IMG/VR virus record: IMGVR_UViG_3300035070_003059 | Span: 1 to 49,018 of that record | Origin: a virus | Direction: 5' to 3' (one strand) | DNA length: 49,018 bases | In this document: one piece after another, positions 8,265-45,200 of the stretch | Position numbering within the stretch: the stretch's first letter is position 1 | How the letters are laid out: the number at the start of each line of letters is the position of its first letter | Made by a program: the position numbers and the translations under genes | The notes under the pieces: generated by a model | The model's input: only the letters and a program-made list of their open reading frames with translations | Told to the model about the DNA's origin: nothing | The model's database searches: none

Positions 8265-8449
8265 GCTGGTTCCTTTGTTATCTTTATGCGTTCATCGGCC
8301 GCTTCAATAAACTTTTGCAATAAATTATGTAATCGTGCGTAGTCTCGTTTGCTTATGCCCGAATATTCGGGCATAACATGATTTAGAACAGCTTGCGCGG
8401 CTCGGAATTTCGCCTTGTTACATACGTTGATATATTCAACCTCTGTCAT
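8261..8449 (-). CDS. Small hypothetical protein downstream of MuF
   Basis: A 62-residue basic helical protein (MTEVEYINVCNKAKFRAAQA start). Its start overlaps the MuF stop by four bases, and its stop overlaps the next gene likewise, so it belongs to a translationally coupled trio. Unknown function. Confidence 0.5.
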   Translation of the reverse strand: MTEVEYINVCNKAKFRAAQAVLNHVMPEYSGISKRDYARLHNLLQKFIEAADERIKITKEPA

Positions 8450-10407
8450 TGCGCCGGTTCCTTTTCCTTTTTAACCTGGCTATCCCGCCGTTCCTTCTCC
8501 GCCTCTATCTGGTCATCTAGCGGCGTTGGTATCGTGCCGATTTCGGGATGCACCGTGTAATGGCGGCAGCGGCAGTTATGGACAAATACTGTACTGCTGA
8601 TGTATAATTCATCAAACGTTTGGAGGTCATAAACATGTCCAGTAAACTCGAATTTTCTAATGCTGACAACCTGTCTAGGCTCTATCAATCCGGCAAATCG
8701 ATCAAAGATATTGCGGATATTTTCGGAGTTTCCCCAATCACCGTCAGACGGCGAATGATTAAGTGGGGGATACCAATCAGGAGTCACAAGGAATCCCAAA
8801 AGGTCAGATGGGACAATGCGCCGGAATCTGCCAAAAAAATAATGGCTGATGTTGCCAAGAGCAATAAAATATTTATCCCAAATCTTGACTTTATTATTGA
8901 ACGATATATCGCTGGCGAGTCCGAATTTAGACTTGCCAAAGAGATTGGAGTTTCTCGCGCCGCGCTCCGATCTCGTTTCGTTGAACGTGGCGTGACCATC
9001 AGAAACGGAAGCGATGCCAACAGGGAGAGAATGAAGCGGCTCTCTCCCGAAGATCGTAAGGAACTTGCTAAGGCGGCGCACGATAAAATTCGCGGCTCTA
9101 AGCGTAGCAAGGCTGAGTTGATCCGTCGGGCCGTCAAAAGGCAGGAAACGCTTCAATACCAATCCGAAGCGGAAAAAGTTCTCATTCAACTTCTTAGAGA
9201 CAGGGGGGTATTGGGGATCGTGCCACAAAAGGCTATCGGGCCATACAATATCGACATTGCCATCGAGGGACAATCCATCGCCGTGGAAGTCATGGGGCAT
9301 AGCCGAGCGAGACAGGCTCCGACTCTTAGCGGATACAAAAAGAGAACGCCATACCTCCTCGATCTTGGTTGGGATGTGATAATTGTACGGGTCGATGGCA
9401 CTCGCTATTTCTTGACCGAAGCGGCTGCTGATTACATAGTCTCCCACATTCAAGAGTCCAGCGGCAATAAATCCGCGCGGGGTCAATACCGGGTGATTAG
9501 GGGTAATGGTGAGCTTGTGGCCGTTAGATATGGTCAACTCGAATACTGGACCTGAGTAATGAGAGCGGCTTGCCGCCATTAGTTTTGGTGCGAAAACCTC
9601 ATTGTCTGGCAATATACAATTAATCGTATTCTTTGCGCTGCCTGCCGGGTCTCGCGGGAATGCCAGCTCCTCCCCGCCTACGGTGAACTTATCATTGACC
9701 CCTACGATCTGACCATGTGCCGACAGGTGAGCATTGCGCGTCCTAAAATCGCCCGTACTCATCCACGCCTTTTGCAGCTCTGGAAACTCTTGCAGGCTGG
9801 TTTCCATCTGCGACTGCGTGGCCACGCTAAAGGCGCGGTTGGTTTCCGTCCGTACTATCGTCTCCGCCCTTGACGCAATGCCGCCCACAATCTTGCGCCC
9901 ACCTTGCACCCCTAAGATGTCTGTGACTTTTTGCATGGCTTGATACGGCGTCAGCGCACCCAGGCCCACGCGCCCGATCTCGCTGCTTATCAGCTTGATA
10001 ACGTCGCCTGTAAGCCCTTTGATGAGGTCGGCGCTGTAATCCATCAGTACATTGATTTGCGCCACGCTGGAGCGGAAAAACGCGCCTTCTATGCTGGCTG
10101 CTATCAACGGCTCGACCACCATCTCGACGCCATCGGTTACGGCCGTTTGCAATGCGCCGTTCTGCATGGTGACGAGTTGACGGCGTAGCGTCTCGGTCTG
10201 GTTTTCGATGTTGGCTTTAATTTCACCCAGGGCGAATGAGGCAAAATAACTATCATCCGGCACGCTGGACAGGTAGCCGATAACGTCCCGGCGGTACTGT
10301 TCAAGGAAGGCCACCATCTGCTTGACGGTGGCTTCTTCCATCGTTTCAAACCGCTTTATGACGCGGTTCATTGCGGCGGCATACTGCCGTTGTTTAGCTG
10401 TTGCCAT
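8446..10407 (-). CDS. MuF-type phage head morphogenesis protein interrupted by an intein
   Basis: A 653-residue precursor. Residues 1-263 and 612-653 form a MuF-type minor head protein (N-terminal helices, then RAETIVRTETNRAF and GDFRTRNAHLSAHGQIVG, ending at the NCRC motif), which is built into the head near the portal. Residues 264-611 are an intein with Cys264 as first residue, a block B with the TPNH signature, a block F (GHVYDLQTFDELYIS) and a terminal VFVHN, followed by Cys612. Splicing would give a 305-residue MuF with an intact N-CRCRH junction. The gene overlaps the portal gene by 14 bases. The middle of the intein is antisense to a nuclease gene. Confidence 0.9.
   Translation of the reverse strand: MATAKQRQYAAAMNRVIKRFETMEEATVKQMVAFLEQYRRDVIGYLSSVPDDSYFASFALGEIKANIENQTETLRRQLVTMQNGALQTAVTDGVEMVVEPLIAASIEGAFFRSSVAQINVLMDYSADLIKGLTGDVIKLISSEIGRVGLGALTPYQAMQKVTDILGVQGGRKIVGGIASRAETIVRTETNRAFSVATQSQMETSLQEFPELQKAWMSTGDFRTRNAHLSAHGQIVGVNDKFTVGGEELAFPRDPAGSAKNTINCILPDNEVFAPKLMAASRSHYSGPVFELTISNGHKLTITPNHPVLTPRGFIAAGLLNVGDYVISSRFGQEIASAIDPYNYHIPTKIEEVWRSLFVSAKSRSLSRSAMPHDFHGDGLSLDGNVDIVWPDSLLWHDPQYPPVSKKLNENFFRFGLVLKRFLPFDGPTDQLSLATLRAANFIVRRLSKFLTIFGREPLHSLPVGIASVSDGHATFNETRSERGARNSNLFGKSKFGLASDISFNNKVKIWDKYFIALGNISHYFFGRFRRIVPSDLLGFLVTPDWYPPLNHSPSDGDWGNSENIRNIFDRFAGLIEPRQVVSIRKFEFTGHVYDLQTFDELYISSTVFVHNCRCRHYTVHPEIGTIPTPLDDQIEAEKERRDSQVKKEKEPAQ
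8579..8635 (+). promoter_or_regulatory. Promoter and RBS of the antisense nuclease gene
   Basis: TGGACA (8579-8584), an 18-base spacer and TATAAT (8603-8608) form a near-consensus sigma70 promoter. It lies entirely inside the last 34 bases or so of the intein coding sequence (opposite strand). The predicted start near 8615 falls in a perfect palindrome CAAACGTTTG (8613-8622), followed by GGAGG (8622-8626) and the ATG at 8635. The palindrome could be an autoregulatory operator. Confidence 0.7.
8635..9555 (+). CDS. Antisense-encoded homing endonuclease candidate (HTH-HTH-Vsr/DUF559-like nuclease)
   Basis: A 306-residue protein encoded wholly inside the intein DNA, on the other strand. HTH1 is near residues 20-50 (KDIADIFGVSPITVRRR); HTH2 is near 85-123 (FRLAKEIGVSRAALRSRF). 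A C-terminal PD-(D/E)XK core follows: SEAEKVLIQLL, Asp207 in NIDIAIEG, Glu218 in IAVEVMGHS, then LDLGWDVIIVRVD. This is the pattern of Vsr/DUF559-type nucleases, a fold also used by EDxHD homing enzymes. The start is the ATG at 8635, with GGAGG 8 bases upstream and a TATAAT further up. The precise family is inference; two-strand coding over 307 codons plus initiation signals argues against chance. Confidence 0.85.
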   Translation: MSSKLEFSNADNLSRLYQSGKSIKDIADIFGVSPITVRRRMIKWGIPIRSHKESQKVRWDNAPESAKKIMADVAKSNKIFIPNLDFIIERYIAGESEFRLAKEIGVSRAALRSRFVERGVTIRNGSDANRERMKRLSPEDRKELAKAAHDKIRGSKRSKAELIRRAVKRQETLQYQSEAEKVLIQLLRDRGVLGIVPQKAIGPYNIDIAIEGQSIAVEVMGHSRARQAPTLSGYKKRTPYLLDLGWDVIIVRVDGTRYFLTEAAADYIVSHIQESSGNKSARGQYRVIRGNGELVAVRYGQLEYWT

Positions 10408-12037
10408 TTGCCCCTACTGGAACGGCCGTTCCCTTGCTAACGGACATTGGTTGAGTAACGGCCAGCGTGTTTGCCGCTTGCCCGTTCGCCTGTGCCATCA
10501 TTGCCTTAAGCTTGTCGTTATTGGCCTGCTCATTGTCAAGTTCGGCCTGCTCGTCCACCTCGTCGATTTCGTCAAGTTCCGCCGCCGTGTCGATTTCGAT
10601 GTTAAGTTCTTTCAACAGCTTGTGGAATACCTCAGCCGCTTTGCGACGGCCGATAATGCCCATCTGCATGGCCTTTTCCAGCGCCGCAATGGTGGGCGCA
10701 AAGGTAGCCGTCACGCCCTTCATGTCCTCGGCGCGTAGGCTGGGCAGCTCGATAGCAATCGTCGGGTACCTGTCCTTGTCAGGCGTCCACTCGTTAGCGA
10801 TTTCGGCCTGGTCTGCCACGAACTGGCACAACATCAGCAGCATTTCCTCGACGATGCCTTGGTCGTGTTCCAGTGACTTCTCCGACGGTGTGGCTTGTTC
10901 GGACAGTGTAGAGCGGTTGGTATCGTTGCCAAAAGCAAACCAGCTCATCGGGTAGCCCACGCCGCCCATATTGTGACCCAGCAGCGCCTCGGCGGCGGCA
11001 ATACTGCCCGACTGTTTAAGGTCGGCCGTTTTCAAGTCCCAATCTTCGTTTTCGTTGGTCATGTTGACGCTGCCGCGTTTGGGCGGGTTCCGCATGATGC
11101 GATTGCGCGCCCGGTTCCAAGCGTCCGATCCTTCCTGCACCCCTGTCAACTTCACGAACCACGAGAAGTAAGCGGCGAACTGCTCCCGCTCACCCAGGGC
11201 AAAAAGCGTGTGTTCGTACTGGTCAATCCAGTCAGCCACTTGCAGCAGGTCGCTATGCCCCCGCGCCTGATTCGATACGCTGTTGACCTTGAAGAAAAAC
11301 ACCGACCCCTTGTACTCTTTCAGTCCCTTCTCCTTCAGCAGCGCCGTTTCCCACGGCTCGATATTGGCCTGCTCTGCCGTCACCAGCTTGCCGGGGTGTT
11401 TGGCTGGAACCACCCGCCCGCCTTCAACATAGTCGTCGTCGTGCCGGATGATACGATAGGCTTTTGTCGGGTTCTCGTAAGAGCCACCGACAAAGATGAT
11501 AGACATCTGCATACTGTTGTCAGGATGGCACACCACGCCGCTAATTGCGGTCGTATCAATGTAGCCAATGCGTGTACGGCCGTCCGACTCCCGTACAAAT
11601 GCCGGGTATATTTGCTCACCCAGCAAAAACAACTGAAGGGTAAACTCCCGCGCCCGTGCCTCCAGTGCGTTGTCATCCCAAAACGAATCAAGGATGGCTT
11701 GCAGCTTTTCATCTTTCGTGATCGGCCTGGCATTCTTGCCAATGATGTGATCCCGTTTCAGCGTCATGATACGCCGGGCCAACGGTGACGACTGCCACAA
11801 TGTCCAGACGGTCTCCATCTGTTTTTCGCGCGGCACCTTGGTAAAGTCGCGTAGCTTGCCACTGCCTCCCATTTCACGATAGCCAAACGATTTTAAGTCG
11901 CCAGATGGCGGCTCGTCGTTGGCGTCTGAATATCCCGCTTCATACGCGCGGGCGGCGGCTGATTCAGTCGCCTCTTGCATTCTAGCGGCAGTCACGCCGC
12001 CCAATGATTCAATGATTCGTTCTCCCAATGTTGCCAT
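10394..12037 (-). CDS. Portal protein
   Basis: A 547-residue protein between the large terminase and MuF genes, as expected for the portal that forms the DNA entry ring. Supporting segments: SSPLARRIMTLKRDHIIGK near residues 85-103, FTLQLFLLGEQIYPAFVR, and SWFAFGNDTNRSTLSEQ followed by EKSLEHDQGIVEEML, typical of SPP1/HK97-type portals. The C-terminus is acidic then Gln- and Ala-rich. The ATG at 12037 follows the terminase stop by 13 bases. Confidence 0.85.
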   Translation of the reverse strand: MATLGERIIESLGGVTAARMQEATESAAARAYEAGYSDANDEPPSGDLKSFGYREMGGSGKLRDFTKVPREKQMETVWTLWQSSPLARRIMTLKRDHIIGKNARPITKDEKLQAILDSFWDDNALEARAREFTLQLFLLGEQIYPAFVRESDGRTRIGYIDTTAISGVVCHPDNSMQMSIIFVGGSYENPTKAYRIIRHDDDYVEGGRVVPAKHPGKLVTAEQANIEPWETALLKEKGLKEYKGSVFFFKVNSVSNQARGHSDLLQVADWIDQYEHTLFALGEREQFAAYFSWFVKLTGVQEGSDAWNRARNRIMRNPPKRGSVNMTNENEDWDLKTADLKQSGSIAAAEALLGHNMGGVGYPMSWFAFGNDTNRSTLSEQATPSEKSLEHDQGIVEEMLLMLCQFVADQAEIANEWTPDKDRYPTIAIELPSLRAEDMKGVTATFAPTIAALEKAMQMGIIGRRKAAEVFHKLLKELNIEIDTAAELDEIDEVDEQAELDNEQANNDKLKAMMAQANGQAANTLAVTQPMSVSKGTAVPVGANGNS

Positions 12038-41568: not shown

Positions 41569-42237
41569 CTATTGTCTCACAAGTGGTAAGTAGATAGGTT
41601 TTTGGCGTTGCAGCGATTGGTAAATCGTCTCGGCAATCAGCCGATGCCCCGCATCCGATGGATGAAAATTGTCACCCTCCCAATAGGGCGCAAATGGGGA
41701 AGGTGTCCCCGGCTGGCTTATGCAATCTGCACAATCCCGCGTGGCTGCCCATACGTCGGACAGAATGGCGCCGCTCTCGTTGGCAATGCTGGCTATGTGG
41801 CCGTTGTAATGCTCGTAGGTGGCATAGCTCTGGTGGCTGCTGGCAACCCCGTGAAACATCGTGGTAATGACCACCGTTGCCCCGGTTGCCTGAATATCCG
41901 CCACCAGGTCGGCGTAAACGGCCGACCAGGCGCTATCCGCGCTTTGTGGCGAACTGACATCATTCAGCCCCACCTCGATGACCACAATGTCCGGCTGCCA
42001 GGCTTGATACCGCTCCCAGCAGGCAACCACCTGGGCCAATTGCGGCCCGTAGCAACTGCCCAAATCAGCATTGAGCAAATCGGCCAAATGGTGCTTAAAT
42101 CCGTTCTGCTCGCTGGTGGCAAAGAGACCGACGGTCAAACTATCACCCACCACCAGCAGGCGCGGCCGTGCGGCGCTTTGTGCGGGTTGGCAAATGGTCA
42201 GCAACAGAATAATGAGCAGTGGCCAGAATTTACGCAT
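41569..42237 (-). CDS. Secreted SGNH/GDSL hydrolase
   Basis: A 222-residue protein. Signal peptide in residues 1-22 (FWPLLIILLLTICQPAQSA). Ser33 in GDSL, GLND at 90-93, and Asp189/His192 in DNFHPSD complete the SGNH catalytic set. It is probably an esterase or deacetylase acting on cell-surface sugar. The signal peptide is odd for a tail-operon gene and suggests that it is exported. It overlaps the end of the fibre gene. Confidence 0.85.
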   Translation of the reverse strand: MRKFWPLLIILLLTICQPAQSAARPRLLVVGDSLTVGLFATSEQNGFKHHLADLLNADLGSCYGPQLAQVVACWERYQAWQPDIVVIEVGLNDVSSPQSADSAWSAVYADLVADIQATGATVVITTMFHGVASSHQSYATYEHYNGHIASIANESGAILSDVWAATRDCADCISQPGTPSPFAPYWEGDNFHPSDAGHRLIAETIYQSLQRQKPIYLPLVRQ

Positions 42238-45200
42238 CTAACAATCTCCGTTCTAAATCCATTACCCGCGCCGCCAGTCGTTGCCGCTCTGTGTATTCCT
42301 GCCACACCGCGCCAATGGCCAGGCGTAGCAGGCGGCTCTCGTTGTAAAATCCGCTCTCGTGGAGGATGCCAGCTTTTACCAAATCCTCACGGCCATATTG
42401 CACCCAGCTATCAAAATCAGAATCAATTACCGAGCCAGGAGACACCGCCCGGTCGAAGGCGCGGGCCAGGTGAGCGTCATGGTATGTGTCGTAGGTGTTG
42501 TCGCTGCCGTCGCGGTGCGTATCACCCTCAGCATCCACGATAAACTTTGTGACACCGCCAGACCGAACCGCAAAAATATTCTCGTTGGCCCCGGCAACCG
42601 CCAGCCCCGTGCCGCTTTTCTTGACGGCGCTTACCTCAGCATAAGCCGATGCCGATGAGTTCTTGGTGGTGTCCCCCGTCGTGCCAATGCCTAGCAGCTC
42701 AATGCCTCTGGTGGCTTCGGTGTAGCCACGAACCGTTGCCCCGCCATCGGTTGCCGATAGCTTTTTGATGACGGCAAATGTGTCTGTCTCTGTGGAGTCG
42801 GTGATGCCGTGATCAATGTCGGAGCTTTTCAGCGCGATAATCTCACCATCATCTGCGCCCTGGTTGATTGTCAGGCCAATCGTCATAAAGCCGTTGACGG
42901 TTTCATTGAGGTACAGCCCGCCGCTCTGGTAAACGGTGCCATCCCCTTTTTGGAGCCAGCTTGTCACCCCGGCGTTGGAAAACGCCACCGCATTACCACT
43001 GTCGGCCACTGCCGCAATGCCGCTGCCGCTTTTAATAGCTGATGTGAGTTGCACAACCCCCTGACTCCCGGTAGAACCTAGCACCGTTGTTGTATCTGCC
43101 GCCTCGCCTAAATAGCCAGCCACCACCATTGCCCGCATGCCCAAACCGTCGGCGTCCCTGAAGCCACGAATGATCAACCCGCCCGACGCATCCCCGTTTG
43201 GACCTCCATCACCGCTTTTACCAAAGTATCCGTAGGTGTCTGTTTCGACGTAGTCGGTCATGCCGTGCGCTACATCTGAGCTTTTTAGCGTAATGATGCC
43301 GTTATCGGCCGTTCCCTGGTTGATGACAAGCCCGGTTGTCACATTGGCATCTGCCGTCTCGTTGATGTAAATCGTTGAGGAAACATTTAGGACGCCCGTG
43401 CCAGTTGCCGCCGTGCCTACGCCCAACCCTTGCACCTGCACACGGCCGTTGCTATCCGTTGCCAAGATGACGGCCGTTGCGCTGCTCACCGCGCTGCTAG
43501 TGGTTATGGCGTGCGTGTGGCTAGATGTTGTTACGCCGTTAGACGTGGACACCGTGAGCGTTGACGGTGTGCCAAGCGTGATGTTATTGCTGGTTTCCGT
43601 CAATCCGTTGCCCAAAATGTCGGTCACATCTACGGCGATAGAATCAGCGGCAACGTCTATACCATCCCCAGCCCCAACCGCCAAAACCTTGCTGGCAATG
43701 GTCAGTCCCGCTCCCGCTACGCTATCATCTAATTGCAGCGCCCCGGTAGAAAATGATAGGCCGCTAGTAGCTGCAAGATTGACGCGGATGTTATTCGTGG
43801 ATTCAGTGAGGCCAAACGACGTGTCAATAAAATCGGTCACGTCTACGGCCATTGTTACCGTGCTGTTTGCCCCGCCGTCGGTTAGGTCGATGCCATCCCC
43901 CGCCGTTAGTGCCCGTTCTGCGCTTAGGCTGGCCGTGTTGCCAATGGTCACGTAGGCAAGGCCAGATAATGAGCTACCGGGGCTGCTGTTGGTGATGGTA
44001 ATTGCCCCGGCGCTGTGGCCGACGCTAATACCTGTTCCCGCTGTCACCGTTTTGTATTCCCACGCCGTGCCCGCCGCATTTGTACCAGGCACTTGATTGG
44101 CACCGCCTACGGTGGTCAGTCCATTGATTGTCAACGTTCTGTCCGCGCTCAAATCAGCCGCCCCGCCTCCGTCAATGCGTACTGGCTGCGTGGCGTTGAT
44201 TGTGCGCCCGGTTGATACGCTGCCAGGGCTGGTGCTTATGTCGGTTTTGCGCGTGGTGTTCTGAGTTTTCCGCACGGCCTCCGCCATGACGCGCTCAGGC
44301 GTCGCCTGCTTTTTGACGGTGTTGGCAATCTGCAAATCGGTGTAGCGTATGCCGTCCTGGCCCACGCTGTTTGCTACTTCGTGAATAGTAAATGAGCTGT
44401 TGACGGTCCAGACGGCCGACCCGCCCGTCGTGCCGCCCTCATATTCGGTATTGTTGACGGCGACCGTCTGTCCCGGTCGGAGGTCATAGGCCACAATACA
44501 GCGCAACCGATAAAAGGTTTTCGCCCCATCACGCTCTTGCAGATAGTTGATGGCTTCTCGCCACAAATCAACCGCCGCGCTTGTTAGCTGCGTGGCGTTT
44601 GTCCCATCCTCGACGCCAATGTCGGAGAAGTCAACGTCAATCCGTTTGGTATAGCCGAGCGCCGTTTCTAGCGTGGTGTTGACAATGACGTTGCTGGCAA
44701 AGGTGGTGCTATAGCCACTTGGATCGCCGCCCGTGTCGCCGCTGTCAATGCCGGTGATGTCCAGCCGTCCATCACCTACGCCAGCCCCAAACGGCCGTAC
44801 GCCGGTAATACGCTCGCTTACGTCGGTTTCCTCTGTCATTGACAGGATAATGCCATCTGTTGTGCTGCCGTCGTAGGTTGCTGGAGTAGATGGCATTCTC
44901 AAGGTCACGCCGCTGCTGTCGGCACTCGCCCGCCATGCTACCGTTTTTGCCGGTGGGCTGTAGCTGGACAGCCGGAAAATGTCGCCGCTCCGTTTTGCGG
45001 TGGCAACCAACAATTGCAGCACATTATCGCCTTTTGTGGCGTGGTAGCTACCCGTCGAACTGCGCGTACTGCCACCCGTGCCCGTGGCGGTGTAGCTCCA
45101 CCCCGCCGCCGCGAATGCCATGATGTCGTCAATGTCGGTAGTGGATGGCCCGCCGCTGCCGTTGTCAATGGCTCCCGTGCCTGCGTTGGTATAGGTGAGC

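Follow-up and report, generated by a model that had tools for sequence, protein, structure and literature searches.

The phage genome analysed here (the window, the whole 49,018-base virus record) very probably carries a mobile intein in a MuF-type gene, with a homing endonuclease gene encoded antisense within the intein. Computation shows that both genes exist, that both are under selection, that translation signals accompany the antisense gene and its product is predicted to adopt a nuclease fold, and that the element occupies or is missing from an exact site. The host gene (8446–10407, minus strand) encodes a MuF-like minor capsid precursor of 653 aa including the intein, which matches PF04233 (Phage_Mu_F, E = 6.8e-8) and PHROG head proteins. 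The N-extein (9619–10407, minus) terminates in ...NTIN, and the C-extein (8446–8574, minus) starts with CRCRH, which supplies Cys+1. The intervening intein (8575–9618, minus) comprises 348 aa from Cys1 (9618) to Asn348 (8575), begins with CILPDNEV and finishes with VFVHN, and is matched by PF14890 and TIGR01445/01443. It contains the class 1 residues Cys1, TPNH of block B and VHN/C at the downstream junction, and the precursor is a single continuous ORF (8446–10407), not a split intein with two genes. A minus-strand intein in a MuF-like gene, as given in the preliminary description, is thus borne out by domain matches and splicing residues. No nucleotide relative of the MuF N-extein and portal region of the window was found in the phage collection.

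The AlphaFold2 (AF2) model of the sense intein has a mean pLDDT of 65.6 and is ordered only in about residues 1–135 and 305–348. The N-terminal splicing part (residues 1–135; 9214–9618, minus) holds blocks A and B and a conserved EVFxSL and FHGD..VDVV extension, with pLDDT mostly above 80 and a dip to ~50 at residues 71–80. The C-terminal splicing part (8575–8706, minus) holds blocks F and G (GHVYDL...VHN/C), with pLDDT above 90 in most residues. They are separated by a linker (residues 136–304; 8707–9213, minus) that faces the HTH region of the antisense gene, seems mostly passive and has pLDDT below 50 at residues 149–295. This sense middle region is predicted to be disordered, and no Pfam match to an endonuclease was found in it. 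In a Foldseek search, the model matched Mtu RecA and other inteins with a probability of 1.00, indicating the Hint splicing fold. C1, T39, N41 and H42 are invariant among 56 aligned intein members; the intein blocks are complete, with C1, TxNH and the block F His invariant and the terminal Asn present in at least 90% of members. The extension at sense residues ~86–135 (EVFxSL...DFHGDG...VDVV; 9214–9363, minus) is a predicted folded addition to the splicing domain and is doubly coded with the nuclease active site.

A 306-codon ORF (8635–9555) of the plus strand lies wholly within the intein and overlaps 88% of it, exactly as first described. Sense and antisense codons are exactly aligned, so that sense position 1 lies opposite antisense position 3. 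The product is a putative homing endonuclease of 306 aa with an HTH-HTH-nuclease arrangement, and in its AF2 model (mean pLDDT 90.9) helical HTH units lead into a core with the order helix-strand-strand-strand-helix-strand. HTH unit 1 (residues 10–44; 8662–8766, plus) matches HTH_7 (E = 1.6e-8) and has predicted helices at 10–18, 23–30 and 34–43; HTH unit 2 (residues 84–117; 8884–8985, plus) has predicted helices at 84–92, 97–104 and 108–117 and PHROG DNA-binding matches. Both segments had been noticed in the sequence beforehand. The nuclease core (residues 178–254; 9166–9396, plus) matches the MTES_1575 nuclease family (E = 1.2e-5) and DUF559 (E = 5e-4), in both cases below the Pfam gathering scores (25.7 vs 38.2 bits and 20.3 vs 20.6 bits, respectively). 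MTES_1575 is matched by 33 of 77 family members at E ≤ 1e-3, and a profile search of the window protein matched the endonuclease-like protein 3hrl (E = 3.4e-6). Foldseek matched the core to Vsr (1cw0 and 1vsr) and the homing endonuclease I-Bth0305I (3r3p) with a probability of 1.00 and TMt values of 0.56–0.65, the E values being weak (0.01–0.04).

The antisense ORF had been presented as a single case, and it proved to belong to a widespread family. A tblastn search with the antisense protein found homologues in 132 phage records, with E values down to 7e-42 and phage hosts including Gordonia, Salmonella, Escherichia, Klebsiella, Vibrio, Pseudomonas, Haemophilus and Idiomarinaceae. With the sense intein as query, 134 records were matched, for the most part at the corresponding places on the opposite strand and with lower identity. 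All 16 loci read (15 fetched loci and the window) have an intact antisense ORF of identical phase, free of breaking stops, which is annotated in none of the records examined. Further loci were collected with a DNA pattern over the FHGD/VDIV core, single-protein locus queries having given nothing. This pattern over the doubly conserved core yielded 177 stretches from viruses and genomes, a few of which are chance matches; the genomes belong to Actinobacteria, Chloroflexi, Firmicutes, Proteobacteria, Acidobacteria, Spirochaetes and others. Most loci were found by the pattern, which fixes the codons of antisense residues 204–207 and 215–218, so the columns concerned were either left out or checked again in 27 loci that had been found independently of it. 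The antisense proteins form one blastp-connected family with 126 complete members, 112 of them non-redundant at 70%.

Judged by the CRC-type sequence 3' of the intein and by the genes examined, the host genes are mostly MuF or other minor-capsid genes. Two loci (L031 and L055) have the intein and antisense nuclease within uracil-DNA glycosylase genes, and the ORF of L055 also has a DNA polymerase A domain. Eight further phage loci chosen by their match to the sense query all have an antisense ORF, which in two is of a LAGLIDADG-like type. A search of 794 genomes at E ≤ 1e-12 gave more intein-borne copies (e.g., L202, L203, L205 and L212) and HTH-only partial matches; among the matches read, no free-standing full-length relative was clearly recognised. 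In a few members, the block F His position offers no usable start or the FHGD motif is missing. Idiomarinaceae phage 1N2-2 (L004) has LYGR and a genome copy (L204) has DLDAYISD in place of FHGD, and these are possibly degenerate or alternative members. In Rhodococcus phage REQ3 (L229), the nuclease motif is kept in the antisense frame, and the start and HTH region seem shortened.

Three conserved sites mark the predicted active site: the near-invariant E180 (9172–9174, plus), the YNxD motif with D207 (9244–9255, plus), which is the antisense of the sense VDIV and is equally invariant in loci that the pattern did not supply, and the (I/V)AVE motif with E218 (9277–9288, plus), which is the antisense of the sense FHGD and whose codons are doubly constrained. 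E180, Y204, N205, D207, A216 and E218 are invariant or nearly so, and this also holds when loci recovered independently of the pattern are aligned. Compared with the EDxHD residues, E180, D207 and E218 are conserved, the His is present in part of the family only, and the final Asp was not recognised. Of the nuclease core proposed at the outset, the Vsr/I-Bth0305I fold stands on the AF2 and Foldseek results, whereas the full EDxHD signature was not demonstrated.

ORF length was rejected as proof of the antisense gene because the same window contains other antisense ORFs of 297 and 313 codons. These control ORFs (10895–11788 and 41602–42543, both plus; 297 and 313 aa) are probably spurious, and neither has a Pfam match. 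The overlap in the window has zero TTA, CTA or TCA sense codons, and the probability that 306 antisense codons are free of stops, given the sense protein and the codon usage of the window, is about 1e-5. Extended to 121 relatives, this calculation yields log10 P = −466 for antisense given sense and −370 for sense given antisense; these values are indications only, since the relatives are not independent.

Selection was compared by codon position in seven Guernseyvirinae MuF genes, which include the Salmonella comparison. The N-extein shows 0.214, 0.138 and 0.505 differences per codon at sense positions 1, 2 and 3, while the corresponding values opposite the HTH region are 0.236, 0.040 and 0.092. 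In this region, it is the antisense strand that carries the third-position signal. Single changes there are synonymous in 446 cases and non-synonymous in 139 for the antisense frame, as against 89 and 496 for the sense frame. The pattern is mixed opposite the nuclease core (0.173/0.061/0.136) and returns to that of the sense frame beyond the antisense start (0.024/0/0.217). Comparisons among Gordonia phages and between the window and one relative (L022) reveal the same flip of codon position.

A reciprocal synonymous-shuffle test covered 112 sequences, with each frame examined on an alignment built from the other frame. The antisense protein is conserved beyond the requirements of the sense frame over its whole length. 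Conversely, the sense frame is conserved beyond the requirements of the antisense frame strongly at antisense residues 1–20 (block F), 195–243 and 261–306 (blocks A and B), and only marginally at residues 81–194. Residues 195–243 correspond to the sense EVFxSL and FHGD..VDVV, with pattern-fixed columns excluded, and GCC-GTG-GAA, which reads A-V-E in antisense and F-H-G in sense, is retained in 23 of the 27 loci found without the pattern. Codons that truly serve both proteins cluster at the splicing blocks and the nuclease active site. Where the sense frame faces the HTH region, much of it is, according to the structural model, likely a disordered linker under little or no constraint. The preliminary description of one element coding on both strands is thus upheld in that both frames are constrained, whereas double constraint does not extend over the whole 88%, sense residues ~149–295 being predicted to be disordered and their frame little constrained beyond the needs of the antisense protein.

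Such a disordered and nearly unconstrained sense middle would also be expected if only the antisense gene were real, that is, if a nuclease gene had been inserted into the capsid gene and the sense translation were tolerated filler, as proposed for the ShiLan domain. We consider this very unlikely, since the intein blocks are complete, C1, TxNH, the block F His and the terminal Asn are conserved, sense constraint is strong at the intein blocks, and the intein fold is confidently predicted.

The expression signals of the antisense gene are placed within codons of splicing blocks F and G. They comprise a predicted sigma70-like promoter (TGGACA-18-TATAAT, 11/12; 8579–8608, plus), a Shine-Dalgarno site GGAGGT (8622–8627, plus), which is the reverse complement of the block F codons for 'DL', and the start codon ATG (8635–8637, plus), which is the reverse complement of the His codon in 'GHVYDL' of block F. 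Across the family, the Shine-Dalgarno site is the reverse complement of the Asp/Asn-Leu codons of block F. CTC encodes the Leu in 89 of 126 members, where codon use in the same ORFs would predict 30.9 (z = 13), and CAT encodes the His in 59 of 73, where 27.9 would be predicted (z = 8.3); both values ignore shared ancestry. Of 133 relatives, 32 have an exact TATAAT in the region before the start, compared with 10.6 in sense-synonymous shuffles in which relatives are treated as independent. These enrichments indicate that selection acts on the start codon, the Shine-Dalgarno site and the −10 box of the antisense gene.

Two further explanations bear on these data. The antisense ORF could be a chance by-product, in which codon bias keeps the aligned frame open and the ORF mirrors the conservation of the sense intein; the further long antisense ORFs in the window and the mirror-image relation of FHGD and (I/V)AVE are in its favor. 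This is extremely improbable, since antisense identity exceeds sense identity, the antisense frame is conserved beyond the sense frame along its entire length, and the Shine-Dalgarno site and start codon are selected. The nuclease fold (pLDDT 90.9) also speaks against it, and the position flip, with substitutions falling at antisense codon position 3, already refutes it. The promoter-like site on the plus strand would equally suit a strand that acts solely as regulatory RNA, a reading with next to no probability in view of the protein-level constraint and the selection on the Shine-Dalgarno site and start codon. Homology, fold, codon-position flips and translation signals settle that the antisense gene is real.

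A second intein type with an antisense ORF was found in Gordonia phages Lennon (L230:2001–2591, minus), Nordenberg (L232:2001–2591, minus) and Barsten (L239:2001–2588, plus), where it occupies the same MuF codon. The Lennon/Barsten intein is outside the FHGD family, and its antisense strand contains a 196-aa ORF with a LAGLIDADG-like motif (AAYVAAFIDGEGTVTV). This ORF has no Pfam match; it shows a weak relationship to I-MsoI (E = 0.0013) and to proteins annotated as endonucleases in cyanophage PP and Caulobacter phages. The codon-position flip recurs between Lennon and Barsten, which differ at 51, 6 and 16 sites at sense positions 1, 2 and 3, and the antisense changes are synonymous in 42 cases and non-synonymous in 9. 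Since an unrelated intein at the same codon has an antisense LAGLIDADG-like ORF, the antisense-endonuclease architecture probably arose twice.

In Salmonella phage ER2, the LSPA1 gene occurs as an intein-less allele whose junction is exact; 451 records match the LSPA1 gene, and 58 of them span at least 80% of it. In Gordonia Vividuovirus phages, one MuF codon (HEVIN/C) is occupied by different inteins (Vivi2, Sedona and Lennon types), despite which the flanking exteins are 92–97% identical. An insert that comes and goes at an exact site between near-identical hosts, a hallmark of homing elements, is thus seen both in LSPA1 versus ER2 and in Vividuovirus. In Kagunavirus BEU35 (L233), the element is at a different MuF-gene site from that of Snoke and has FYGD/AIE instead of FHGD/AVE. 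The exact empty alleles and the turnover of inteins between near-identical exteins are the reasons for which we infer homing. Splicing, cleavage and promoter activity are also inferred.

The element may work as follows. The minus strand encodes the MuF-type capsid precursor, from which the splicing domain (intein residues ~1–135 and 305–348, with the disordered linker between them) would excise the intein. The codon-aligned plus strand is a complete gene with its predicted promoter, Shine-Dalgarno site and ATG in the C-terminal splicing codons. The two HTH units of the 306-aa protein would bind a long target, which the Vsr/I-Bth0305I-type core would cut at the insertion site in intein-less MuF alleles of co-infecting phages. 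Recombination repair would then copy the intein and antisense gene as one.

A real antisense protein might instead be a regulator, a defence protein or a host-attacking nuclease, since HTH units with a PD-(D/E)xK-like architecture also suit restriction-like enzymes. This is unlikely, because the intein accompanies the antisense protein in every member read, at exact insertion sites and with intein-less alleles, a homing endonuclease is among the nearest structures, and the second intein type has an antisense LAGLIDADG-like ORF instead. On the reading as a homing endonuclease, a single piece of DNA specifies protein splicing from one strand and a putative mobility enzyme from the other, and conserved intein residues are encoded by the very codons of the catalytic core. 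Endonuclease decay after fixation is the usual fate in the homing cycle. If the reading is true, entanglement would keep the endonuclease from such decay, which suggests why some endonucleases escape it; the sense homologues examined kept the antisense frame. The family also amounts to a large natural collection of antisense double coding in which each strand gives an independent readout, and it is a nuclease family that gene callers miss in well-studied phages.

It is quite possible, and we put it forward tentatively, that this is a fourth, undescribed intein configuration that is widespread in phages and has originated at least twice. Its endonuclease would be overprinted antisense, so that the active-site codons and start signals of the enzyme coincide with conserved splicing codons. 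A preprint on the non-canonical architecture of actinobacteriophage inteins, cited by the ShiLan paper, may describe some of the Gordonia MuF cases; most of the antisense-nuclease intein family is outside actinophages. The initial statement that no intein of such form had been described accordingly holds for the intein review, which does not mention an antisense endonuclease (PMC7765530), and may fail in part for that preprint. Inteins are described in that review as full-length (with an in-frame endonuclease), mini or split. Like canonical full-length inteins, the present element has a splicing domain interrupted between blocks B and F, carries an endonuclease and occupies a conserved host site. 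Unlike those with an in-frame LAGLIDADG or HNH enzyme, its nuclease is a separate opposite-strand gene with its own start that overlaps splicing-block codons, and the sense insert is a linker. It does not match a mini-intein, which has no endonuclease, since the antisense nuclease gene is inside the element. With Vsr and the EDxHD family (I-Bth0305I; PMC3943268), it shares the predicted catalytic fold, E/D acidic residues and an extended HTH DNA-binding region, whereas those enzymes are intron-borne or free-standing and this one is antisense inside an intein. The nearest precedent found is the out-of-frame HNH ORF of ShiLan, which has no intein (PMC11855218). The ShiLan domain and the hidden HNH insertions of Pacc40 are likewise phage nuclease ORFs in an alternative frame of an in-frame insertion; there, however, the alternative frame is described as being read from the transcript of the host gene, with no intein and no detected ribosome-binding site (PMC11855218), whereas the present gene is antisense and has an intein, a Shine-Dalgarno site and a predicted promoter.
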